NCBI GenBank assembly: GCA_028818695.1
Contig: JAPPNK010000030.1
Location: 1-64,000, forward strand
DNA length: 64,000 nucleotides
DNA from: Candidatus Poribacteria bacterium
GTDB lineage: Bacteria > Poribacteria > WGA-4E > GCA-2687025
Direction: 5' to 3'
The notes below the pieces were generated by a model that did not search any database, was not told the DNA's origin, and saw only the letters and a list, made by a program, of their open reading frames with translations. Below, one piece after another: positions 5,987 to 35,889 of the stretch. The position numbers and the translations under genes are program-made. How positions within the stretch are numbered: position 1 is the stretch's first letter; every line of letters begins with the position of its first letter.

Positions 5987-7936
5987 ATGAACGCGATCAA
6001 AACGCCCCGCCAACGGACGATGCGGAGCCGCTTCTTTGAGCGGTCTTCAGCGCCTCCCCGTTCGCTTCAAACCCAAAAAACTGCAAAGGGAATTTGCATG
6101 ATGTTCGCTCAGAAAAAAACTGCTTCTCCGCTTCACATGTTCGCGTTGATCGTTTGCCTCAACTTCGTTCTCCTGATGAACGCCGCCGCCCAAAACAACG
6201 CCGGCGTCAACTATATTTTTGAGTCGATCAACGTTCCGGGCGTCGATTTTTTGGTGCTGACCGCAAGCAGCGACTTTGAAGATTACGCCGGCTACACGCT
6301 CAGTCCAGACGGCGAGAAGGTCGTTGGCTTCACATTGATCGACGGCGTTTTCAAAACCTACGATTTTCCTGGCTCGCAGGGTACGTATTTCGACGCCCTC
6401 GGCAATGACGGCTCCGCTGCGGGACACTACGAGGACAGCGACGGGATTAACCATGGCGTCATCTTGGACCCAAACGGCGAGCTGAAACAGTACGATTTCC
6501 CAGGCGCCGCCGAGACGGCCATCTACGGCATTAACGATGAAACGGGAGCTTTGAGCGGCGACATCGTGGATGAAGATGGGTTTACCCATGGATTCTCAGG
6601 GGATACGGTGATTTCATTCCCTGGCGCTGTCCATACATATGCGGACTTTGTCAATGCTGACGGCGTTGTCGTCGGCAGCTTCATAGACGCTAACGGCGCG
6701 TTTCAAGGGTTCATTCGCGACCCCGACGGCAGTTTTACGACGATCGACATTCCAGGAATTCCAGATTTGTGGTACATCTTTGTGAAGGGGATCAACAATG
6801 ACGGCGTTGTGGTCTTTAGAGCTAGAGCTCCTGGCGATATTCAACGTTCCTATATCCTCCTGCCAGGCGGCGAGCCTCAAGAATTGCAGTTCCCAGGCAG
6901 CGTTACCACAACGGTACGAAATATCAATCAGGACGGGAGTATTATCGGCTATTATGCCTCTGAGGACAGGCGCCTGCACGGCTTTATCGCCAGACCCGCC
7001 TCCGCGGAATTGAGCGGTCATTACAGCAACGCCTACAGCGTCGCGTTGACGAAGGGTCTCAACACGATCTCGGTACCGTTGAAGCCGCCAACCCCCATGA
7101 ACGCAAAGGCGCTCGCAGGGCTGGCAGGATCGACAACCGTTATCAAGTTGGACGGGACAAAGCAGCGTTTCGTCGGGTGGACGCCCGGCGCCCCCGACGA
7201 CGGCTTCCCGATCGAAGGCGGCAAAGGGTATATCGTCAATGTCCCGACAGAGCGCCACTTTTCCTTCGCCGGCGCGCCATGGACAGACCCTGCCGGCACA
7301 GCGCCGGGCGCGCCTCCCCTTTCCACGGAAAGTATCCAGGGAGCATGGGCGTTCGTTGTGAGCGGGCATCTGGAAGGCAAGCGCGCGTTGGGCGGCTACA
7401 GGGTTGTCGTCCGCAACCGCAGAACACACGAAACGATATCGGCGCCTGTACAAGAAGGTTACTTCGCCGCCGCGACGGCCGATCTATCGCGCCGAAGCGT
7501 TGTTGAAGTTGGAGACGCGATGGAGCTGCGCGTCGTCGGTCCAGACGGCAATGTTGAATCGCAAACCTTCGCTTTTGAAGTGACTTCAGAGCATCTCGCA
7601 AACGCCGTTCTGCCCGTTAGGCTGTACGGGGTCGGCAAGCCCGTTCAGAATCGACTGCTGCAGAATTACCCGAATCCGTTCAATCCTGAAACATGGATTC
7701 CGTACCAGCTCGTCGAAGACAGCGACGTCTCGATTGCGGTATACGATTCGTCGGGCAGGTTGGTTCGTTCTCTCTCGCTCGGTTATCAACCCGCTGGCTT
7801 CTACAACAGCCGAGGCAGAGCCGCGTATTGGGACGGACGCAACGCTTTCGGGGAGCGCGTCGCCAGCGGCGTCTATTTTTACCAGTTGAAAACGCCGTCG
7901 TTCCGTCAGACGCGGCGGCTGTTGATCTTGAAATGA
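5987..7936 (+). CDS. Secreted repeat (HAF/propeller-like) protein with FlgD-like C-terminal sorting domain, copy 1
   Basis: 649 residues. After the signal peptide (MFALIVCLNFVLLMNAAAQ) come about five to six repeats built around YDFPG or IPG, GIND..G, HGF and VGSF/IGYY. They resemble extracellular HAF-type repeats and probably form a beta-propeller (inferred). A domain starting near NAYSVALTKGLNTISVPL then leads to a FlgD-Ig/T9SS-type tail with NYPNPFNPETWIPYQL, GRLVRSL, YWDGRN and GVYFYQLK. Start: ATG 5987 follows AAAGGATGAGAGT, but ATG 6098 (after AAAGGGAATTTGC) starts right before the signal peptide. The upstream stretch is shared with the next gene and differs by an in-frame 36-base gap, so I keep 5987. 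Ligand unknown. Confidence 0.8.
   Translation: MNAIKTPRQRTMRSRFFERSSAPPRSLQTQKTAKGICMMFAQKKTASPLHMFALIVCLNFVLLMNAAAQNNAGVNYIFESINVPGVDFLVLTASSDFEDYAGYTLSPDGEKVVGFTLIDGVFKTYDFPGSQGTYFDALGNDGSAAGHYEDSDGINHGVILDPNGELKQYDFPGAAETAIYGINDETGALSGDIVDEDGFTHGFSGDTVISFPGAVHTYADFVNADGVVVGSFIDANGAFQGFIRDPDGSFTTIDIPGIPDLWYIFVKGINNDGVVVFRARAPGDIQRSYILLPGGEPQELQFPGSVTTTVRNINQDGSIIGYYASEDRRLHGFIARPASAELSGHYSNAYSVALTKGLNTISVPLKPPTPMNAKALAGLAGSTTVIKLDGTKQRFVGWTPGAPDDGFPIEGGKGYIVNVPTERHFSFAGAPWTDPAGTAPGAPPLSTESIQGAWAFVVSGHLEGKRALGGYRVVVRNRRTHETISAPVQEGYFAAATADLSRRSVVEVGDAMELRVVGPDGNVESQTFAFEVTSEHLANAVLPVRLYGVGKPVQNRLLQNYPNPFNPETWIPYQLVEDSDVSIAVYDSSGRLVRSLSLGYQPAGFYNSRGRAAYWDGRNAFGERVASGVYFYQLKTPSFRQTRRLLILK
7367..7563 (+). 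repeat. 197-base exact direct repeat, left copy
   Basis: Identical base for base to 10144-10340 (offset 2777). Both copies lie in the same domain of tandem paralogs. Flanking coding sequence is clearly less conserved, as expected from a local gene-conversion tract. Confidence 0.85.
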
Positions 7937-25184: not shown

Positions 25185-26870
25185 ATGGAGGACCCGCTCA
25201 GCGATCAACAACGGGAACAGATTGACGCTCTCGCCGCGCAGATCGGATACGAGTTTGATCCCGATCTAATGTACGCTCTGGCATTGGAAGCCGCGATGGA
25301 GTTGACGAACGCTCCGGCAGGTTCGCTATGCATTGTGGATGAGGAGCGCGGAATCCTTGAGATACCGATCACACGAGGATTCAACTATCAGTTTGTATCG
25401 AATCTCAACCTGCAGATTGGGCAGGGGCTGATCGGATGGGCGGTGAAACATGCGCAGTCGGTGAATGTGCCGGACACGCGCAAGGAGAGCCGATTCATCC
25501 CCGGCGACATCCAGACGCTCTCGGAGCTGGCGGCGCCGATCGCCCTGGACGGGCGCGTCATCGGCGCGATTGACGTCGCCGCCCCGTATCTGAACGCGTT
25601 TAGCCGAGAGGATGAAGCGGCGCTGCAGCGTCTCGCAGACCGTCTCGCCCCCAGCGTTGAGCATGCGCGGCGGTACGACGCGGCGCGTCAGCGGGCGGCG
25701 GCGCTCCATTCGCTTTTTAAGATCGGGAACTACATCTCGCAGACGCTCAATCTTGAGGAGCTGCTCAAAAGCATTGTGGAGCATGCGGCGGATCTGATGC
25801 AGGCGCGCATCGCGGCGCTGAGCCTTCTGGACGAAACCGGCGAAATGCTTGTCACGAAAGCAGTGAAAGAGGAAACGAGCGGCGAATACTCCTCAAAGCC
25901 TCCGCTTGCGGTCAATAAGAGCCTCATCGGCGGGGCGATCCTTTCCAAAAAGCCGCTTTCGGTCGAGGATGTTCAAAAGGATCCGCGCTACCAGTTCAAG
26001 GACCTCGCCCAAAAAGCGGACCTGCGCGGAATGCTTGCCGTACCGCTCACCATTGACGAGGAGCCGCTGGGAGCGTTGAGCGTCTATAAAACGCATCGGC
26101 ATATCTTCAAGGCGGATGAGATCGCGCTCACGAAGGGGCTGGCTGATCAGGCGGCGATCGCCATTCGCAACGCGCACCTCTATAAAGAGATGTCGATGCT
26201 GGGCGATCAGGTTCGCCAGGCTGAAAAAATCGGAATGATGGGTCAAATGGCGGCAGAGTTTGCCCATGAACTTCGCAACCCGCTGACGATACTTGTCATG
26301 CTGCTGGACATAGAGGAGCCGGGGGAGGATGTGCGCCAAAAGATACAGGAGCAGGTGACGCGCATGTCGGGCATCGCGCAGAAGTTTCTTGACTTTGCGA
26401 AGCCGAGCGGGGGCGAATTCAGCGCTGTGAATGTGAAAAAGGTTGTTCGGAATGTGTTGAACATGGTCAAGCACCGGGCAACGCAGCAAAATGTGCGCGT
26501 CCGCGAAGAGTTCCCGCGCGAGAGCGTCCTTGTGAGCGCCGACCAGAACCAGCTGGAGCAGGTGTTTTTGAACCTGTTTTTGAACGCTCTGGACGCGATG
26601 CCGGTCGGCGGGCGTTTGAGCGTCAAGGCGGAGAAGAGCGAAAACCACGCCCGAATCGCCGTCTCCGACACGGGCGGCGGCGTGCCTGAAAATGTGAAAG
26701 CGGAGCTGTTCAAACCGTTCAACACCTCCAAGCCGTCCGGAACGGGGCTTGGGCTGTCCACCGTCAAGCGAATCGTCCTTGACCATCAGGGAGATATACG
26801 GCATGAAAACGCGGCCGAGGGGGCGCGCTTCATTTTGTCGCTCCCGCTGCTGAACGAGAGCGCAGAATGA
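25185..26870 (+). CDS. Soluble GAF-GAF sensor histidine kinase
   Basis: 561 residues without membrane segments. Two GAF domains (about 20-165 and 185-345) sense an unknown cytoplasmic signal. The HisKA dimerisation domain has AEFAHELRNPLT with phospho-acceptor His361. The ATPase domain shows NQLEQVFLNLFLNALDAM (N box), VSDTGGGVPE (G1) and GTGLGLSTVKRI (G2). Its stop overlaps the ATG of the NtrC-type regulator, so the two form a two-component pair. This GAF-kinase/NtrC layout resembles the AtoS/NtrB type of nitrogen or stress sensing, but the signal cannot be told. Confidence 0.9.
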   Translation: MEDPLSDQQREQIDALAAQIGYEFDPDLMYALALEAAMELTNAPAGSLCIVDEERGILEIPITRGFNYQFVSNLNLQIGQGLIGWAVKHAQSVNVPDTRKESRFIPGDIQTLSELAAPIALDGRVIGAIDVAAPYLNAFSREDEAALQRLADRLAPSVEHARRYDAARQRAAALHSLFKIGNYISQTLNLEELLKSIVEHAADLMQARIAALSLLDETGEMLVTKAVKEETSGEYSSKPPLAVNKSLIGGAILSKKPLSVEDVQKDPRYQFKDLAQKADLRGMLAVPLTIDEEPLGALSVYKTHRHIFKADEIALTKGLADQAAIAIRNAHLYKEMSMLGDQVRQAEKIGMMGQMAAEFAHELRNPLTILVMLLDIEEPGEDVRQKIQEQVTRMSGIAQKFLDFAKPSGGEFSAVNVKKVVRNVLNMVKHRATQQNVRVREEFPRESVLVSADQNQLEQVFLNLFLNALDAMPVGGRLSVKAEKSENHARIAVSDTGGGVPENVKAELFKPFNTSKPSGTGLGLSTVKRIVLDHQGDIRHENAAEGARFILSLPLLNESAE

Positions 26871-28321
26871 ACAAACCGAAAATACTTGTGATCGACGACG
26901 AAGAAGACATCCATTTTGCGCTCAACAGGTCGCTTGGGTGCGATTACGATCTGCTGAAGGCGCTGGACGCCGAGACGGGGCTTGAGATCGCCGCGGCGGC
27001 AACGCCGGACCTTGTCATCACCGACATTCAGCTGCCGGGCATTAGCGGAATTGAGGCGCTGAATACGTTCAAAAGCGAATATCCGAATTTGAGCGTCATC
27101 GTCATGACGGCGCATTCAACCACCTCGCGCACGATTGAGTCGACGAAGCTGGGCGCGTATGAGTACTTTATCAAGCCGCCGGACACGCACGAGCTGCGCA
27201 GCGCCATCAACAGGGCGTTGAAAGACGCCGAGCATCAAAAAAAAACAACGAACGTCCAGATGGACAGATCCGATGCGCTGGTCGGCTCGTCGCAGGCGAT
27301 GCAGAATATCCGCAAGCTGATTGGAAAAACGGCGGGGCGCATGTCGATGCCGATCGAAGCGTTCGACGCGAACGGGATGAAGTACGAAAAGTATCCGATC
27401 ATACTCATCACAGGCGAGACAGGCGTCGGCAAAGAGCTGGTGGCGCGGCTGCTGCATCAGCACAGCAACCGAAGCAAGATCATTGTGGTGAATGTGGCGG
27501 CGGTGCCGGCGAACATCTTTGAAAGCGAGCTGTTTGGACATGAGCGCGGAGCCTTCACAGGGGCGGAAAAAGTGCGCATCGGGCGGTTTGAAGAAGCGCA
27601 GAACGGGACGCTTTTTCTGGATGAGATCGGCGAGATACAGAACGAACTTCAAACCAAAATGCTGCGTGTCTTGGACGACTGGGAATTCAGCCGCGTCGGC
27701 GGGAACGAGCTGATACGCATCAACACGCAGGTGATCGCCGCGACAAACAAGGATCTGTCCAAAGAGGTGAGCGAAGGGCGCTTCCGCAACGATCTGTACT
27801 ATCGGCTCAAAAACTTGACGATCCATGTTCCGCCGCTGCGGGAGCGGAAGGAGGACATTGAGGAGCTGACCAACTATTTTCTAGACAACCTGCGCAAAGC
27901 GACCGGGAAATCCAGCCTGCGAGTCAACCGGCGGACGATGCAGACGCTGAAAAAATACCTGTGGCCGGGCAATGTGCGGGAGCTCAAAAATGTGCTGGAG
28001 GGAGCGGCGGCTCAAACGGACGGAGAGATCGCGCCCGAAGACCTGGCTCTGGAAGAGGACCCAGCGGTGTCGAGTGCGGCGAGCGTGGACGAGAGCCTGA
28101 ACAACGGCATCAACCTGCTGTTAGACAATCCGCCGACTGAAGGCGCGCACCAGTATATCGACCGCATTTTGACCTTGAACGCGCTGGAAAAAGCGAACGG
28201 AAATCAGCAGGAGGCGGCGCGGCTCTTGGGCGTCTCGCGCAACACGATCGCCTCCAAACTGAAAAAATACGGACTCTCAAAAGAGATCACCATCGCCTCC
28301 GCAAAACGCGGCGGCGCATAA
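26867..28321 (+). CDS. NtrC-family sigma54-dependent response regulator
   Basis: 484 residues in three parts. The receiver domain (1-120) has the phospho-acceptor Asp53 in VITDIQLPG and the conserved Lys in FIKPP. The AAA+ domain has Walker A GETGVGKE from residue 183, the sigma54-contacting loop GAFTGA (228-233), and Walker [11 protein letters not shown]. The C-terminal Fis-type helix-turn-helix is [21 protein letters not shown] short insertion (about 20 residues, [16 protein letters not shown]) precedes Walker A. It should activate promoters read by sigma54. I did not find a convincing GG-N10-GC promoter in the window, so targets are probably elsewhere. Confidence 0.93.
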
Positions 28322-28484: not shown

Positions 28485-29666
28485 ATGAAAACGACCGACC
28501 CGTTCAACTTTGACGAAGCCGCTGTCTTGCAGATGGAGAACATCCGCCGCATCGGTCTGCGCCGTCTGCGCAACCGCGGCGAGATCGACGATTTCGTACA
28601 GGAAACGATCCTGCGCGCCTACGCCAAACGCGGACAACTGCGCGACGAAGCGAAGTTTGATCGGTGGGTCGCCGTCATCGCGCGGAACCTCGCCGCCGAA
28701 TGGAATCGTAAAAGGCGCGAACAGCCGATCGATGAAATTCCCGAAACGCCCGACATGAGAACGCCGCACGACACCCTAGAGGAAGCGGAAGAGCGGCAGC
28801 GGCTCCACAGAGCGATGGGGCGTCTCAACGAAGACGACAGGGAGATGCTGCGCGCCCGTTATTTTGACGAAGCCTCGTATGAGGAGCTTCAAGAGCGGCA
28901 TGGCTTGTCCTATTCGGCGGTCGGCTTTCGCCTTCATCGGGCGAAAGCGCGTCTTCGCAAGCTGCTTACATCAACCGCCGCCGCGTTCGCCGCCGCCTTT
29001 GCCGGTTTTGGACGCGCGGCATGGGGAGGAATACTGCTCATGACCAAAACAACAAAAATCGCCGTCGGAGCCGCCGCAGTCGCCGCGGGCGTCTTGATTG
29101 GCGGATACATCTGGATCAACAACGCCGATGATAAAATCGACGCGCCGAACGACAACCCCTTGACAATTGAAGAGCAAAGCCCGCGCATTGCGCCGCTTTC
29201 CAGTCAGAAGTCGACCGACAGCCAGAGTGCGACCGAACGCGCGAATCGTCCGTCTGAAGCGGCTGAAGTCCGCGGCGACTCCACCGCGCCGGCGCCGACC
29301 TCCGATGTCGAATCTCAAACGGCGGACTCCATCGGCGAAACCGAGCCTTCCGACGCGCCGGCGCCAGACGGCGAAGCGATCAACGACGAAACAAAGAGCG
29401 GCGCGGAAGCTTATGAGCCGCCGATGCGCTATCGATACGACGGCATGGATATTGTCGCCGATGTGGAGATTCCGTATGAACTTGCCCTGAATGGAGGCAA
29501 AGTGCATTACAAACATCCCGACGGCAGCATGTCATGGACGGTCGAACTCCCCGCCGGGTCGCTTTTAAAGCATCCCAAACAATTTCTCACGGAGGAGGGC
29601 TTGGGACTCACCGACGGGGACAAAACAGGCGACTTCATCATCAGCATTACGGTCGCCGGCAAATGA
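28485..29666 (+). CDS. Membrane-tethered ECF-type sigma factor 1, with DnaJ-C-like C-terminal domain
   Basis: 393 residues. Sigma region 2 (about 15-78, DDFVQETILRAY, KFDRWVAVIARN) and region 4 (about 103-161, LSYSAVGFRLHRAKARLRKL) are those of an ECF sigma factor. A hydrophobic stretch (163-186) and a transmembrane segment (KIAVGAAAVAAGVLIGGYIW, 191-210) follow. After an acidic, low-complexity linker, residues 322-391 (ADVEIPYELALNGGKVHYKH, VELPAGSLLKHPKQF, GDFIISITV) resemble the C-terminal substrate-binding domain of DnaJ, unlike the other three copies. An internal ATG at 29040, ten bases after GGAGG, could give the membrane part alone. No separate anti-sigma gene is adjacent, so the fused part may itself control release; this is inference. 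Confidence 0.82.
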   Translation: MKTTDPFNFDEAAVLQMENIRRIGLRRLRNRGEIDDFVQETILRAYAKRGQLRDEAKFDRWVAVIARNLAAEWNRKRREQPIDEIPETPDMRTPHDTLEEAEERQRLHRAMGRLNEDDREMLRARYFDEASYEELQERHGLSYSAVGFRLHRAKARLRKLLTSTAAAFAAAFAGFGRAAWGGILLMTKTTKIAVGAAAVAAGVLIGGYIWINNADDKIDAPNDNPLTIEEQSPRIAPLSSQKSTDSQSATERANRPSEAAEVRGDSTAPAPTSDVESQTADSIGETEPSDAPAPDGEAINDETKSGAEAYEPPMRYRYDGMDIVADVEIPYELALNGGKVHYKHPDGSMSWTVELPAGSLLKHPKQFLTEEGLGLTDGDKTGDFIISITVAGK

Positions 29667-29683
29667 GTTCCGGACTCCGCTGC

Positions 29684-29710
29684 CTTTTTCTCCAAAAGCG
29701 CTAAAATACG
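29684..29710 (+). promoter_or_regulatory. Shared motif upstream of sigma gene 2
   Basis: CTTTTTC (29684-29690), then CCAAAAGCGCTAAAAT; TAAAAT (29702-29707) ends 41 bases before the ATG at 29749. Confidence 0.5.
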
Positions 29711-29748
29711 GCGCGTCGGTTCGTCATATAGTGTAGAAAGGCAGGCGT

Positions 29749-31068
29749 ATGAAAGCGCAACGACCGTTCAACTTTGACGAAGCCGCCCTCTCGCAGATGG
29801 AGAGTATCCGCCGCATCGGTCTGCGCCGCCTGCGCAACCGCAGCGAGATCGACGATTTCGTACAAGAAACGATCCTGCGCGCCTACGCTAAACGCGACCA
29901 GCTGCGCGACGAGACGAAGTTTGACCGATGGATCGCCGTTATCGCGAACAACTTGGCGCGCGATTGGAACAGCGCATTTTACCGCAGAGGGCGGGAAGAG
30001 CCGATCGACGAGCTGCCCGACATACCCGACGAGCGAACGCCGCACGACGCCTTAGAGGAAGAGGAAGAGCGGGAGCGACTCCATAAAGCGATGGGTCGTC
30101 TCAACGAAGACGACAGGGAGATGCTGCGCGCCCGTTATTTTGACGAAGCCTCGTATGAGGAGCTTCAAGAGCGGCATGGGCTGTCCTATTCAGCGGTTGG
30201 TTTTCGTCTTCATCGCGCGAAGGCGCGCCTGCGCAAGCTGCTCACATCAACCGCCGCCGCGTTCATTGCCGCCTTCGCAGGTATGAAACGCGCGGCATGG
30301 GGAGGAATACTGCTCATGACCAAAACAACAAAAATCGTCGTCGGCGCGGCTGTCGCCGCCGCAGGAATTCTGATTGGCGGGTATCTCTGGCTCAACAACG
30401 CAGACGCTGAGCGCGAACCTATCGAGGGCGCGTTGACGCTCGAAGAGCAAAGTCCGCGCATGACGCCGCTCTCCGCGGTGAAATCGACCGGCGGCGAGAG
30501 CGCGTCCGGCAGCGCAAGCGTTCAATCCGAAACCGGCCAAATCGACAGCGAAGCGTCCGTGGCGCCGCAGGCCTCCAACGCCGACCATGAAACGACAGCG
30601 GCGGCTCCCGTTGAAGCGGAAACGGAAGAAGACGCCGAGGAGGCGGATAAGCAAGCGGCGATCGCTGTCTTCAAAGCGTTTGAGGCTGCGATGTTGACGT
30701 TAGATATAGAAAAAGCGCAAAGCATGGCGCGCGGCCAGGCGCATGCTGTCCTAGGCTCGCTTGCGCAAACACTTGCTGATAAGGGCGACTCAAATGTCAC
30801 GTCCCGACCGCCGGAGCAGCAGCTGGACTACAAGTTTGTCTATGCGGACGGTGAGATGCGCGTCACATCCAACGGCGATCACGGAGATGTCCCTCTCATC
30901 CTGCGCAAAACGGACGGCAAATGGTATGTGGAATCGATACCAGCCTTCGTTTCCGCATCCAAAACGATCAGGGATGAACAGGGAAACGTTCTGGAACATA
31001 TCGACAGCGGGGATCTTCCCTTGACTCCTGAAAACGTTGAGTTGACCGAGAAAATCTTGGAACATTGA
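29749..31068 (+). CDS. Membrane-tethered ECF-type sigma factor 2
   Basis: 439 residues. Sigma regions 2 and 4 are nearly the same as in copy 1 (DDFVQETILRAYAKR, EDDREMLRARYFDEASYEEL, LSYSAVGFRLHRAKARLRKL). A transmembrane segment (VVGAAVAAAGILIGGYLWL) begins near residue 197. An acidic Ser/Glu-rich linker is followed by a globular domain from about residue 302 (KQAAIAVFKAFEAAMLTLDI, FVYADGEMRV, LILRKTDGKWYVESIP), which looks like an NTF2/DUF4878-like fold and is probably outside the membrane. An internal ATG at 30316 has GGAGGA ahead of it. The ribosome site is AAAGGCAGGCGT. A strong hairpin follows at 31093. Confidence 0.82.
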   Translation: MKAQRPFNFDEAALSQMESIRRIGLRRLRNRSEIDDFVQETILRAYAKRDQLRDETKFDRWIAVIANNLARDWNSAFYRRGREEPIDELPDIPDERTPHDALEEEEERERLHKAMGRLNEDDREMLRARYFDEASYEELQERHGLSYSAVGFRLHRAKARLRKLLTSTAAAFIAAFAGMKRAAWGGILLMTKTTKIVVGAAVAAAGILIGGYLWLNNADAEREPIEGALTLEEQSPRMTPLSAVKSTGGESASGSASVQSETGQIDSEASVAPQASNADHETTAAAPVEAETEEDAEEADKQAAIAVFKAFEAAMLTLDIEKAQSMARGQAHAVLGSLAQTLADKGDSNVTSRPPEQQLDYKFVYADGEMRVTSNGDHGDVPLILRKTDGKWYVESIPAFVSASKTIRDEQGNVLEHIDSGDLPLTPENVELTEKILEH

Positions 31069-31092
31069 TCGGCGCCGTCCTGAGGAATTGAA

Positions 31093-31127
31093 ATATAGGC
31101 GGTCGGACGAGCGCCGACTGCCTATAT
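31093..31127 (+). terminator. 14-base-pair hairpin after sigma gene 2
   Basis: ATATAGGCGGTCGG (31093-31106) pairs throughout with CCGACTGCCTATAT (31114-31127), counting one G-U pair; seven-base loop. It separates sigma gene 2 from the intergenic repeat. From 31128 to 31171 I see nothing. Confidence 0.6.
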
Positions 31128-31171
31128 CGAGCTTCCGATCAGAAAATGCGGGATAAGCGGCGCGGGAAGCC

Positions 31172-31313
31172 CCTACAGGCGATGATGTACGAAAATCCTG
31201 TTCAAATCGGGCAGATCGTCATTCCCGCGAAAGCGGGAATCCAGAGTTCTTCCAGACAGCCTTCGCATTCTAAAACAGCTCTTTAAAATCAAAATCGTCG
31301 CCTATAGAGACTG
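31172..31313 (+). repeat. Dispersed 145-base intergenic repeat, copy B
   Basis: Opens CCTACAGGCGATGATG, centre ATTCCCGCGAAAGCGGGAAT, closes CGCCTATAGAGACTG. More than 85 percent like copy C by eye and inverted relative to copy A. Confidence 0.8.
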
Positions 31314-31414
31314 TCGCGGCGCGATGAATGATGCGCCGCCCGCTTCACAGCGCTATCATAATAGAGACGATGAAGCGCAGCCTCGGCAACGAGCGGAAAG
31401 GGAGAGAGACGGCG

Positions 31415-31912
31415 ATGGCAAACTGGAAAAAGCGGTTCACACGCGGCAGGAAAAAATCGGGACCCTCGGGACCCAACTGGAAATTGGAGCGGAGCAGCGA
31501 ACATATCTCAGAAACGATCGCCGAAAGCTCCACAGACGGCTCCTTCAAAGGCTCCGCAACATTTGAATTTAAAAATTTTGTCGGGGTCGAAAAGATCGAA
31601 ATGCGCACTCCCTATCTTTCCGAGTTCGGCGGTCCCATTCGCGGCGCTGTTCGTATTGAGCGCCATGACAGCAGCGACATCCGCATCTCCATGAAGGGAG
31701 CCTTGGAAAGCGGCAACGAGAACGAGGAGGGGAAAAAGTTCTTTAAACAGATGACCCCAAAAGTCAAGGCAGACGGCAAAACGGCGGCGCTTCGTCATGC
31801 GTTCGCCGAGCTGACAGAGCTTCCTGAGCATATCCGATCCGTCAGCATGGATTTTGAAGTGAGAGCGCCTGAAAATGTGGAGATCGTACTTTCTGAAAAG
31901 GCGTCAGACTAA
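31415..31912 (+). CDS. Unrecognised family, FGGPI domain protein 3
   Basis: 165 residues from the ATG at 31415 (GGGAG ten bases upstream); the frame extends to 31328 but without a ribosome site. Close paralog of the protein at 13429-13941: MRTPYLSEFGGPIRGAV, IERHDSSDIRISMKGALES, FFKQMTPKVKADGK, LPEHIRSVSMDFEVRAPE. The N-terminal 45 residues are basic and not conserved. Cytoplasmic by absence of signals. It lies inside the sigma array, between copies 2 and 3, so it may belong to that regulon; function unknown. Confidence 0.72.
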   Translation: MANWKKRFTRGRKKSGPSGPNWKLERSSEHISETIAESSTDGSFKGSATFEFKNFVGVEKIEMRTPYLSEFGGPIRGAVRIERHDSSDIRISMKGALESGNENEEGKKFFKQMTPKVKADGKTAALRHAFAELTELPEHIRSVSMDFEVRAPENVEIVLSEKASD

Positions 31913-31935
31913 GACGGCAAACGCGCGCCGCGTCC

Positions 31936-31972
31936 GATTCCCCCTTGAAAAGGGGGGCTAGGGGGGTTTAAA
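31936..31972. repeat. CCCCCTT...AAGGGGGG intergenic repeat
   Basis: GATTCCCCCTTGAAAAGGGG followed by GGCTAGGGGGGTTTAAA. A short hairpin sequence of a kind often dispersed in environmental bacterial genomes. Only one copy is in the window. Confidence 0.5.
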
Positions 31973-32000
31973 GGACGGGCGCGGCGGCTGCAAGGCATTA

Positions 32001-32082
32001 AGATTCCCGCTTACGCGGGAATGACGCTTTGGATCTGCGGCAGTCGCGCAAAAATGAATTTCATCGCCTGTAGAGACTGTCC
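32001..32082 (-). repeat. Partial, diverged copy D of the dispersed repeat
   Basis: Keeps the palindrome ATTCCCGCTTACGCGGGAAT and one end CATCGCCTGTAGAGACTG in the orientation of copy A, but the middle and the other end are lost. Confidence 0.6.
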
Positions 32083-32110
32083 TCAACCAGCCTAGAATCC
32101 AAAAAATCGC

Positions 32111-32125
32111 AAAATGCGCTAAAAT
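32111..32125 (+). promoter_or_regulatory. Shared motif upstream of sigma gene 3
   Basis: AAAATGCGCTAAAAT; TAAAAT (32120-32125) ends 41 bases before the ATG at 32167. The leader ACGCAACAAATAACGTAGAG is the same as that of sigma gene 4. Confidence 0.5.
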
Positions 32126-32166
32126 GACCATCCCCTACGCAACAAATAACGTAGAGGAGATGAACC

Positions 32167-33498
32167 ATGAACGCATCCGACAAGTTCGACTTTGACGAAG
32201 CCGTCCTTTCGCAGATGGAGAATATCCGGCGGGTTGCCCGCCGCTTTCTGCGCAACCGCAATGAGATTGACGACCTCGTCCAAGAAACTGTTCTGAAAGC
32301 GTATGCGAGCAGGCATCGCCTCCGCGACGCGGCAAAATTCGACCGCTGGATCGCCGGCATTGCCCGCAACACAGCGCGCGAATGGAACCGCCGCGCGTTT
32401 TACCGAAATGAGCGCGAAGAGCCGATGGACGAAATCCCCGAAACGCCCGACTTTAGAACGCCCCATGACGCCCTAGAAGAAGAGGAGGAGCGGAAACAGC
32501 TCCACAGGGCGATGGGGCGTCTCAACAACGACGATCGGGAGATGCTGCGCGCCCGTTATTTTGACGAAGCCTCGTATGGGGAACTTCAACAGAAATACGG
32601 GCTGTCCTATTCGGCGGTTGGCTTTCGTCTTCATCGGGCGAAGGCGCGTCTTCGCAAGTTGCTCACATCAACCGCCGCCGCGTTCGTTGCCGGTTTTGCC
32701 GGCTTTAGACGCGCGGCATGGGGAGGAACACTGCTGATGTCACAAACTACGAAAATCGCCGTCGGCGCTGCCGTTGCCGCCGCAGGAATTCTGATTGGCG
32801 GGTATCTCTGGCTCAACAACGCCGGCGCCGAGCGCGAATCTACCGAGAGCGCGTTGACGCTCGAAAAGCAAAGCCCGCGCATGACGCCGCTCTCCGCGGT
32901 GAAGTCGACCGGCGGCAAGAGCGCGTCCGACAGCCCGACCATTCAATCCGAAGCTGTCCAAGTTGACAGCGAAGCGTCCGCGGCGGCGCTGGTCTCCAAC
33001 GCCAACCATGAGACGACGATGGCGGCTACCGCTGAAGCGGAAACGGAAGAAGACGCCGCCGAAGAGGCGGAAAAGCAAGCGGCAATCGATACCTTCAATG
33101 CGTTCAGCGAAGCGCTGACAACGTTCGATTTCGAAACGGCGCAAAGCATGGCGCGCGGCGAAGCGTATGAGACCCTAGGTCTGTTTGCGCAACTATTTGA
33201 TCAAGCAGAAAATTTAGAGATTCATCCGCCGGAGAAACCGCCGGTCAACAAGTTTGTTTATGCGGACGGCGAGCTGCGCGTCACAACCGACGGCGGTCTC
33301 CCGACGATCCTGCGCAAAACGGGCGACAAATGGTACGTGGAATCGATGCCTGCCGGCATTTCCTCATCCCAAACGATCAAGGACGAACATGGGAACGTTC
33401 TGGACCATATCGAAACTGGAACTCTTCCTTTGACTGTTGAAAGCCTTGAGTTGATCGAGGACATCACTGTTGAAAGCGTTGAATCGACCTCGAAATAA
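32167..33498 (+). CDS. Membrane-tethered ECF-type sigma factor 3
   Basis: 443 residues with the same plan as copy 2: ECF regions 2 (DDLVQETVLKAYASR) and 4 (LSYSAVGFRLHRAKARLRKL), a transmembrane segment (IAVGAAVAAAGILIGGYLWL from about residue 197), an acidic linker and a probable extracytoplasmic NTF2/DUF4878-like domain (KQAAIDTFNAFSEALTTFDF, FVYADGELRVTTDGG, TILRKTGDKWYVESMP). Copies 3 and 4 share their leader and GAGGAGATGAAC ribosome site, so they are the most recent duplicates. An internal ATG at 32737 follows GGGGAGGAACACTGCTG. Trailer sequence GGGGCTGCAATAAGCCGACT recurs after the next two paralogs. Confidence 0.82.
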   Translation: MNASDKFDFDEAVLSQMENIRRVARRFLRNRNEIDDLVQETVLKAYASRHRLRDAAKFDRWIAGIARNTAREWNRRAFYRNEREEPMDEIPETPDFRTPHDALEEEEERKQLHRAMGRLNNDDREMLRARYFDEASYGELQQKYGLSYSAVGFRLHRAKARLRKLLTSTAAAFVAGFAGFRRAAWGGTLLMSQTTKIAVGAAVAAAGILIGGYLWLNNAGAERESTESALTLEKQSPRMTPLSAVKSTGGKSASDSPTIQSEAVQVDSEASAAALVSNANHETTMAATAEAETEEDAAEEAEKQAAIDTFNAFSEALTTFDFETAQSMARGEAYETLGLFAQLFDQAENLEIHPPEKPPVNKFVYADGELRVTTDGGLPTILRKTGDKWYVESMPAGISSSQTIKDEHGNVLDHIETGTLPLTVESLELIEDITVESVESTSK

Positions 33499-33622
33499 GG
33501 CGCATCGGGGCGCGGCGGGGCTGCAATAAGCCGACTCCGCTTGCGCCCCTGCGCAAGATGGGGCAGTCTTAACTTTTAGACGGGCGGCATGGAAAGGAAT
33601 ACTATGGAAAGGAATACTGCTG

Positions 33623-34054
33623 ATGCCCCAAACAAAGAAAATTATCGCCGCGGCGGCTGTCGCCGTCGGAATCCTGATTGGCGGGTATCTCTGGATCAAC
33701 AACGCCCAGAAGGCGGATAAACAAGCGGCGATCGATACTTTCAACGCGTTCAGCGAAGCGATGCTGGAGCTTGACATACCAAAAGCGCAAAGCATGGCGC
33801 GCGGCGAGGCGCATGCCTCCCTACTCCTGCTTGCGCAATTACTGGACAAGAGCGTGAACATAAAGGTCGAACCGTCGGAGAAACCGCCGGTCCATGAGTT
33901 TATCTATGCGGACGGCGAGCTGCGCGTCCTCTCCGACGGCGGAGAGAATCTGACCGTCCTGCGCAAAACGGACGGCAAATGGTATGTGGAGGATCTGCCC
34001 TCCACCATTTCCAAAACGATGATTCCTGAAATCCTTGAGTTGATCTCGAAATGA
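33623..34054 (+). CDS. Free-standing membrane/sensor domain of the sigma family (sigma part missing)
   Basis: 143 residues. It starts exactly where the internal ATG lies in the full-length paralogs and keeps their AAAGGAATACTGCTG leader. One N-terminal transmembrane segment (AAAVAVGILIGGYLWI) is followed directly by the NTF2/DUF4878-like domain (KQAAIDTFNAFSEAMLELDI, FIYADGELRVLSDGG, TVLRKTDGKWYVEDLP); the long linker is absent. Upstream, ATGGAAAGGAATACT is tandemly doubled (15 bases). The reading frame is intact, so this may be a working membrane protein produced by loss of the sigma half and not just a decayed copy. Confidence 0.68.
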   Translation: MPQTKKIIAAAAVAVGILIGGYLWINNAQKADKQAAIDTFNAFSEAMLELDIPKAQSMARGEAHASLLLLAQLLDKSVNIKVEPSEKPPVHEFIYADGELRVLSDGGENLTVLRKTDGKWYVEDLPSTISKTMIPEILELISK

Positions 34055-34153
34055 GGCGGATCGCGGCGCGGGCGGGGTTGTAAATAAGCCGACTCCGCTT
34101 GCGCCCTTTAGTCCGTCTGAGATATGAAGAACTTATCGCATAAACGATATAAC

Positions 34154-34181
34154 TTGACATAGAAACTTGACCGAATAAAAT
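34154..34181 (+). promoter_or_regulatory. Promoter of a compact transcription unit
   Basis: TTGACA (34154-34159), 16 bases, TAAAAT (34176-34181). A 12-base palindrome GCGTATATACGC (34202-34213) lies just downstream and could be an operator; TATACT follows at 34214. Confidence 0.55.
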
Positions 34182-34291
34182 GCCAAATCGCTCCTCTGTC
34201 CGCGTATATACGCTATACTCTTACGGACACAGCAACTGGAGCAGAAATATACAACGCACCCGACAGCCCAAAAAAGATTCAAAGGAGAACG

Positions 34292-34375
34292 ATGCATGAC
34301 GATACGACGCGTCCGACCACCTCTCCCCGCCACCTCTCCCCGCCACCTCCCATCTCGCCCATAAGGCTAGTCTGA
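34292..34375 (+). CDS. Possible 27-residue Pro/Thr-rich peptide
   Basis: ATG at 34292 with a strong AAAGGAG six bases upstream; the product reads MHDDTTRPTTSPRHLSPPPP and then ISPIRLV. It lies between a promoter (34154) and a T-tailed hairpin (34374-34399). Composition is low complexity because of a tandem CACCTCTCCCCGC repeat, so the unit could instead be a small RNA or what is left of a lost gene. The stretch 34400-34483 shows nothing else. Confidence 0.35.
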   Translation: MHDDTTRPTTSPRHLSPPPPISPIRLV

Positions 34376-34399
34376 AACGCCGGGCGTTTCAAGTTTTTT
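34374..34399 (+). terminator. Intrinsic terminator of the compact unit
   Basis: GAAACGC (34374-34380), loop CGG, GCGTTTC (34384-34390), then AAG and TTTTTT. The stem begins inside the stop codon of the 27-codon frame. Confidence 0.75.
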
Positions 34400-34483
34400 C
34401 AGCCTCCGCTTGCGCCTTTGCGCGCTCCGAAGACGCCCGTTATTGGGTACTGTCGACCTTCGCTTTTTCAAAACTTAAAATTC

Positions 34484-34499
34484 AAAATGCGCTAAAAAT
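34484..34499 (+). promoter_or_regulatory. Shared motif upstream of sigma gene 4
   Basis: AAAATGCGCTAAAAAT; TAAAAA (34493-34498) ends 41 bases before the ATG at 34540; CTTTTTC also occurs at 34463. Confidence 0.5.
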
Positions 34500-34539
34500 G
34501 CTCTCCTTTACGCAACAAATAACGTAGAGGAGATGAACA

Positions 34540-35889
34540 ATGAGTGCATCCGACAATTTCGACTTTGACGCAGCCGTCCTTTCGCAGATGGAGAATATCC
34601 GGCGGGTCGCCCGCCGCTGTCTGCGCAATCCCGATGAGATTGACGACCTCGTCCAAGAAACCGTTCTGAAAGCGTATGCGAGCAGGGACCGCCTCCGCGA
34701 CACTGCAAAATTCAACCGCTGGATCGCCGGCATCGCCCGCAACACAGCGCTCGACTGGAATCGCCGCGCGCTTTACCGAAATGAGCGTGAAGCCCCAATG
34801 GACCAGCTCATCGAACTGCCCGACTTTAGAGCGCTCCGCTTTAAAGCGCTCCACGACGCCCTAGAAGAAGCGGAGGAGCGGGAACAGCTCCACAGGGCGA
34901 TGGGGCGTCTCAACAGAGAAGATCGGGAGATGCTGCGCACCCGTTATTTTGACGAAGCCTCATACGGGGAACTTCAACAGAAATACGGGCTGTCCTATTC
35001 GGCGGTCGGCTTTCGTCTTCATCGGGCGAAGGCGCGTCTTCGCAAGCTGCTCGCATCGACCGCCGCCGCGTTCATTGCCGTCTTCGCAGGCATGAAACGC
35101 GCGGCATGGGGTGGCATACTGCTCATGGCTAAAACAACGAAAATCGTCGTCGGCGCTGCCGTTGCCGCCGCAGGAATTCTGATTGGCGGGTATCTCTGGC
35201 TCAACAACGCTGGCGCCGAGCCTGAATCTGCCATCAGCGCGTTGACGCTCGAAGAGCAAAGCCCGCGCGTGACGCCGCTCTCCGCGGTGAAGACAACCGG
35301 CGGCGAGAGCGCGTTCGACAGCCCGGCCATTCAATCCGAAGCTGTCCAAGTCGACGGCGAAGCGTCCGCGGCGGCGCTGGTCTCCAACGCCGACCATGAA
35401 ACGACGATGGCGGCTCCCGTTGAAACGGAAGCGGAAGAAGACGCCGTTGAGGAGGCGGATAAGCAAGCGGCGATCGCTGCCTTCAAAGCGTTTCAGAACG
35501 CAATGCGCGCGCTCGATTTAGAAAAAGCGCAGAGCATGGCGCGCGGCGAAGCGTATGATTCCCTAGGTCTATTTGCGCAGCTGCTTGATCAAGCAGACAA
35601 TTTAGAGGTACATCCGCCGGAGAATCCGCCGGTCGACGAGTTTGTCTATGCGGATGGCGAGCTGCGCGTCTCCGTCGATGGCGGTCTCCCGACCGTCCTG
35701 CGCAAAACGGACGGCGAATGGTATGTGGAATCGATGCCTGCCGCCATTTCCTCCTCCAAAACGGTCAAGGACGAACATGGAAACGTTCTGGAACATATCG
35801 AAACGGGGAACCTTCCCTTGACTCCTGAAAGCCTTGAGTTGATCTCGGAAATCGCGGAAGTTTCGGAAGTTGCATCGGTTTCGAAATAA
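34540..35889 (+). CDS. Membrane-tethered ECF-type sigma factor 4
   Basis: 449 residues, closest to copy 3: regions 2 (DDLVQETVLKAYASRDRL) and 4 (LSYSAVGFRLHRAKARLRKL), transmembrane segment (VVGAAVAAAGILIGGYLWL), acidic linker, and NTF2/DUF4878-like domain (KQAAIAAFKAFQNAMRALDL, FVYADGELRVSVDGG, TVLRKTDGEWYVESMP). Between regions 2 and 4 it has a small in-frame duplication (DFRALRFKALHD) that copy 3 lacks. The internal ATG at 35125 is present but its ribosome site is weakened to GGTGG. It converges on the sialidase-like gene. Confidence 0.82.
   Translation: MSASDNFDFDAAVLSQMENIRRVARRCLRNPDEIDDLVQETVLKAYASRDRLRDTAKFNRWIAGIARNTALDWNRRALYRNEREAPMDQLIELPDFRALRFKALHDALEEAEEREQLHRAMGRLNREDREMLRTRYFDEASYGELQQKYGLSYSAVGFRLHRAKARLRKLLASTAAAFIAVFAGMKRAAWGGILLMAKTTKIVVGAAVAAAGILIGGYLWLNNAGAEPESAISALTLEEQSPRVTPLSAVKTTGGESAFDSPAIQSEAVQVDGEASAAALVSNADHETTMAAPVETEAEEDAVEEADKQAAIAAFKAFQNAMRALDLEKAQSMARGEAYDSLGLFAQLLDQADNLEVHPPENPPVDEFVYADGELRVSVDGGLPTVLRKTDGEWYVESMPAAISSSKTVKDEHGNVLEHIETGNLPLTPESLELISEIAEVSEVASVSK

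Follow-up and report, generated by a model that had tools for sequence, protein, structure and literature searches.

Evidence for a conserved in-frame internal start in a family of membrane-tethered ECF sigma factors from Candidatus Poribacteria

Results

Four tandem sigma factor genes with a membrane helix

The window, the whole stretch of 64,000 nucleotides that was analyzed, lies within a 3.57 Mb assembly of Candidatus Poribacteria. Four genes on its forward strand, s1 (28485..29666, 393 aa), s2 (29749..31068, 439 aa), s3 (32167..33498, 443 aa) and s4 (34540..35889, 449 aa), each encode an ECF sigma factor followed in the same open reading frame by a membrane helix, a linker and a C-terminal domain. 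This is the tandem array of four fusions that the initial annotation had described, with sigma-70 regions 2 and 4 and one hydrophobic segment in every member. The free sensor copy that it had mentioned was also found: a gene on the forward strand between s3 and s4 (33623..34054, 143 residues) encodes a membrane helix and an NTF2-like domain without the sigma half. Judged by sequence, the genes immediately upstream of s1 (25185-28321) encode a sensor kinase of the GAF type and a response regulator of the NtrC type.

A profile search of the sigma halves, one of the checks proposed with the initial annotation, placed Sigma-70 region 2 (PF04542) and region 4 (PF08281) above the Pfam cut-offs in each of s1-s4. 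The NCBIfam sigma70-ECF model (TIGR02937) also scored above its cut-off in all four (1e-23 to 1e-25). Regions 2 and 4 are present without regions 1 and 3, as in ECF sigma factors. After the sigma half, and a linker of about 20 residues that contains no Cys, each protein has a single strong hydrophobic segment between residues 193 and 220 (Kyte-Doolittle 1.92-2.05 over 19 aa). The linker beyond the helix is acidic. Topology was judged from hydropathy and the positive-inside rule. A two-helix topology with both the sigma half and the C-terminal domain inside was considered and rejected; the first hydrophobic stretch reaches merely 1.1-1.5 and has K/R in its middle, and, therefore, the one-helix topology is preferred.

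With s2 as the reference, identity over the sigma-plus-helix half is 76-83% for s1, s3 and s4. The dN/dS values agree with the claim that the sigma and membrane parts are conserved and the linker changes fast: about 0.2 in the sigma half for most pairs (0.46 for s3/s4), mostly 0.06-0.15 in the helix (0.52 for s3/s4), and 0.45-1.05 in the linker, with values near 1 in most pairs. The C-terminal domains gave 0.5-0.8, and the free sensor compared to s3 and s4 gave 0.40-0.45. No zinc-finger domain, FecR domain or separate anti-sigma gene was detected in Pfam and NCBIfam scans of six proteins, consistent with the proposed lack of a separate anti-sigma gene. Pfam found neither a zf-HC2 domain between sigma and helix in the members scanned nor a FecR-type domain beyond the helix in s1-s4 or the other members scanned. 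A search for a classical anti-sigma partner among the neighboring genes also yielded no candidate; the ORF between s2 and s3 (31328-31909, 194 aa) has no Pfam or NCBIfam match.

The C-terminal domains are of more than one kind

A C-terminal domain is present in all four proteins, as had been proposed, but the four do not belong to one family: the domain is DnaJ_C-like in s1 and NTF2-like in s2-s4. The s1 domain (29418..29654, forward strand, aa 312-390) matched Pfam DnaJ_C with an E value of 1.3e-4, which is under the gathering score, and a PDB phmmer search matched it to a DnaJ C-terminal fragment (E 1.4e-4). The s4 domain (35428..35817, forward strand, about aa 297-426) was assigned from an AF2 model of low confidence overall, with pLDDT mostly 60-84 over this domain, which aligned with the NTF2-like structures of the CaMKII hub and AtzH (2w2c_N, Z 8.9; 9eoy_B, Z 8.8; 6d63_E, Z 8.4). 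The top 50 Foldseek rows were sigma matches, and the NTF2-like matches surfaced solely upon realignment. Both full-length AF2 models that were obtained (mean pLDDT 54 and 50) are of low confidence outside the sigma and NTF2-like parts. s2-s4 and the free sensor share an alpha+beta end domain, and the s2 domain aligned with that of s4. Other paralogs carry end domains that Pfam leaves unassigned.

The family is expanded in this genome and spread through the phylum

The genome encodes 12 fusions and not only the four of the window: three more stand in tandem at locus L005 and five are single. There are three free helix-plus-sensor genes, at 33623 in the window and at 7727 and 8547 of L005. Relatives were found in 16 of the 84 genomes and 10 of the 21 genera of the phylum (E 1e-6), a count that had been suggested as a check. 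Together with patterns resembling gene conversion, these numbers bear out the idea of an expanding family. The fusion frame is open in all matches but one, which has stops. Outside Poribacteria, in a sample picked by sigma similarity and not a census, one of 77 ECF ORFs had more than 60 residues past region 4, and that one had no membrane helix.

The two halves of these genes diverge unequally. For s2/s4, dS is 0.92 in sigma and 0.2-0.3 beyond it, and L005a/L005b are 100% identical across ~300 nt of sigma with end domains 30-60% identical. Therefore, the sigma and sensor halves appear to have been exchanged as modules.

Several other loci were observed. L005 (3281-9332) carries its three tandem fusions and two free sensors together, and the identical sigma halves and diverged ends of its first two fusions resemble gene conversion. 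Two decayed, internally deleted relatives of s1 lie elsewhere in the same genome (L122, contig C26, 2211-3175). One has lost the helix and most of sigma but still has the GGAGG-ATG, a portion of region 4 and the leader of s1; in the other, the s1 leader and first residues are joined straight to the DnaJ_C-like domain. In genus g14, the helix of three free sensors adjoining a fused copy is followed by a TonB-like, proline-rich stretch, and their end domain is large (L179 7291-8499, L180 4145-5698, L187 2-553). Two other g14 members, L199 and L202, have kept GGAGG...ATG and have seemingly lost the membrane helix right after it.

A promoter-like element upstream of family genes

A putative promoter-like element, CAAAWNGCGCTAAAA, was found on the forward strand ~40 nt before family genes, at 34483..34497 (s4), 32110-32124 (s3) and, with one mismatch, 29692-29706 (s2). 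Four of its five exact sites are upstream of family members. The sole exact site elsewhere (G000 C23:23177, L224) precedes a gene whose 287-aa product is predicted to be secreted. A similar element with a plain TATAAT precedes a DsbD-like gene, and, therefore, CAAAWNGCGCTAAAA may be an ordinary -10 element. It could mark a common regulon or be an ordinary promoter. The shorter GCGCTAAAAT, considered as a regulon marker, was discarded since its 14 exact sites were matched by equally many in a reversed control and mostly had no coherent context.

A Shine-Dalgarno sequence and start codon lie in frame at the sigma/membrane junction

Just before the helix, the proteins share the motif GG-x-L-L-M-T-K. 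In nearly all 12 genes of this genome, the DNA reads GGA GGA NNN NTN NTN ATG, which encodes a Shine-Dalgarno (SD) sequence at normal spacing and an in-frame start, GGAGGA-N9-ATG, at the sigma/membrane boundary. On the forward strand of the window, these sites lie at 29025..29042 in s1 (GGAGGA 29025-29030, ATG 29040-29042), 30301..30318 in s2 (GGAGGA, ATG 30316-30318), 32722..32739 in s3 (GGAGGA, ATG 32737-32739) and 35110..35127 in s4 (ATG 35125-35127). The s4 sequence is a weaker GGTGGC, with a predicted anti-SD energy that is still -9.2. GGAGGA is present in 11 of the 12 genes, and the start codon is ATG or GTG. GGA makes up just 21-25% of Gly codons, and where Gly is conserved elsewhere, the codon is GGG, GGC or GGT.

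Free sensor genes begin exactly at this codon. The one in the window has an RBS and start (AAAGGA and ATG, 33608..33625, forward strand) homologous to the internal ones, and its start at 33623 and those at 7727 and 8547 of L005 all fall on the internal-start codon. Separately, in genus g14, the free sensors L179, L180 and L187 begin at the same codon.

Selection on the site was examined in a collection of 92 genes, from which 42 representatives less than 70% identical in the junction region were taken; the representatives are related by descent and not independent, and the identity filter lessens this dependence without abolishing it. In the Gly pair, the first residue is encoded by GGA in 25 of 37 cases against a background of 24% (p=2.5e-8), the strongest codon bias of the 79 alignment columns. 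The second Gly is free among codons (9 GGA, 8 GGT, 5 GGG, 1 GGC). This combination is expected from GGAGGN. The start column holds Met in 23 representatives and Val in five, and Val is GTG in all five, compared to GTG in 31% of Val codons. Anti-SD pairing of -8 kcal/mol or stronger was predicted in 33/42 representatives, compared to 5.9% of 289 other internal ATGs (p=7.6e-20). Folding of the mRNA is weakest centered on the internal start (-5.7 vs -8.8 kcal/mol per 40 nt, p=7e-5). By codon bias, anti-SD pairing and folding, the SD, the start codon and the local mRNA structure are under selection apart from the protein sequence.

This is a pooled signal and not one of individual genes. Synonymous recoding tests on single genes were weak and underpowered (median p 0.20; 22 of 89 at p <=0.05), and the SD is weak or absent in s4 and some relatives. 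Both the ATG and the SD are present in G059, a family member that belongs to a different class of the phylum. Poribacteria also have TM-ECF fusions of a second type, which come from a different family of the class; at their helix, neither an ATG nor a GTG accompanied by a strong SD is present, and one of the 13 has a TTG with a strong SD there.

Discussion

The initial annotation had viewed each protein as a one-piece sensor and sigma factor. The sigma-membrane-sensor architecture stands, but the proteins are probably not simply one piece, given the conserved in-frame RBS and start at the junction. The explanation we favor, and consider fairly probable, is that each gene has two protein products read in a single frame, a membrane-tethered sigma factor and its own sensor half alone. 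Translation from the first start would yield the tethered ECF sigma factor, in which sigma regions 2 and 4 lead through a short amphipathic linker into the single membrane helix, followed by a second linker and an extracytoplasmic sensing domain. From the internal RBS and its ATG or GTG, a short product is predicted, which would consist of the helix and sensor without sigma.

The junction site could instead be an unused fossil of gene fusion within a one-piece tethered sigma factor. IutY of Pseudomonas putida, which has the same domain order, works as one piece with no internal start reported (PMC5411451), and in a planctomycete relative, the sigma gene ends in a TGA that overlaps the ATG with which a separate gene for a membrane protein begins, presumably the ancestral layout. 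We consider a fossil unlikely, however, since the SD wobble bases, the exclusive use of GTG for Val and the openness of the mRNA have been kept across genera in genes less than 70% identical, while adjacent synonymous sites have been scrambled. Under the two-product explanation, the likely origin is also a fused overlapping pair of sigma and membrane-regulator genes, one that retained the start of the second gene. Ribosome pausing has been proposed for internal SD-like sequences, and a pause before the membrane helix that aids targeting would require no start at all. The position of the SD-like sequence, directly upstream of the helix throughout the family, would suit such a role, yet pausing needs neither a start codon at the proper spacing nor GTG-only Val nor unstructured mRNA. 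The free genes start at the site and the other type of TM-ECF fusion lacks it, and we regard pausing as improbable. Even harder to maintain is that a free sensor and a mostly untethered sigma factor are the functional proteins, with the fusion only an incidental product of reading through two joined genes. In favor of this, the sigma half by itself is as large as an ordinary ECF factor, and the halves appear to recombine as modules (s2/s4, L005a/L005b). However, the halves run on without an intervening stop in the fused genes that were collected, which leaves no mechanism for a free sigma half without proteolysis.

Under the two-product explanation, the tethered sigma factor would be kept silent at the membrane and freed by intramembrane proteolysis, by analogy with IutY, an ECF243 sigma/anti-sigma hybrid that is activated by Prc and RseP proteolysis (PMC5411451, PMC8999054). 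The initial suggestion of proteolytic release is plausible in light of this precedent and of the S2P/M50 protease genes (PF02163) in the genome. The sigma-free sensor would pair or compete with the tethered form and thereby set threshold and gain. The short product would have just some six residues on the inner side and could not act as a classical anti-sigma factor; thus, it would more probably pair with the sensor part of the full-length protein or compete for its signal. NTF2-like domains often oligomerize. Since the sigma halves are so alike, different sensors may converge on one regulon. On balance, we lean slightly toward a broader view in which every family gene is a two-product signaling unit of a tethered sigma factor and a sigma-free receptor, with the ratio set by the internal RBS and with interchangeable sensors feeding near-identical sigma halves.

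Both parts of this arrangement have known counterparts. Like the Poribacteria fusions, IutY holds an ECF sigma factor, a single membrane segment and a periplasmic regulatory part within one protein (PMC5411451, PMC8999054), but it has an anti-sigma domain of the cell-surface-signaling type and an adjacent TonB-dependent receptor. No FecR domain was found in the Poribacteria fusions; on the outside they carry NTF2-like, DnaJ_C-like or unassigned domains, and they have the conserved internal RBS and start. ECF48, ECF52 and ECF53 (e.g., SCO4117) also fuse an ECF sigma factor to a membrane helix and an extracytoplasmic part (PMC8999054); however, these carry a zinc-finger anti-sigma domain before the membrane, and none was found in the Poribacteria fusions. 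Without these anti-sigma domains, the Poribacteria family was not assigned to the IutY or ECF48/52/53 types. ECF41 and ECF56 with a SnoaL extension likewise have an NTF2-like fold after the sigma domains, but it is attached directly, on the cytoplasmic side, with no membrane helix, whereas the s4 domain (Z 8.4-8.9, low-confidence model) lies behind a helix and a long linker. In-frame internal starts that yield a short C-terminal product from a same-frame SD and start are known from phage endolysins (PMC9430671) and Cas11b (PMC11899642). The products of such genes can form one complex (PMC9430671, PMC11899642), and in the phage endolysins, the long product assembles with the short one from the same gene (PMC9430671). 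In the open-access literature, we found no report that combines a tethered ECF factor with an in-frame internal start and no earlier case of the latter in a sigma factor gene.

Looking for a similar arrangement in other fused regulators would be simple with the wobble-base and GTG tests. If the two-product explanation is true, the annotation of one protein per gene would be wrong for this family in all lineages that carry it. A single gene would then encode both a transmitter and a receptor-only partner, a mode of tuning a sigma factor that is undescribed in the open-access ECF literature.
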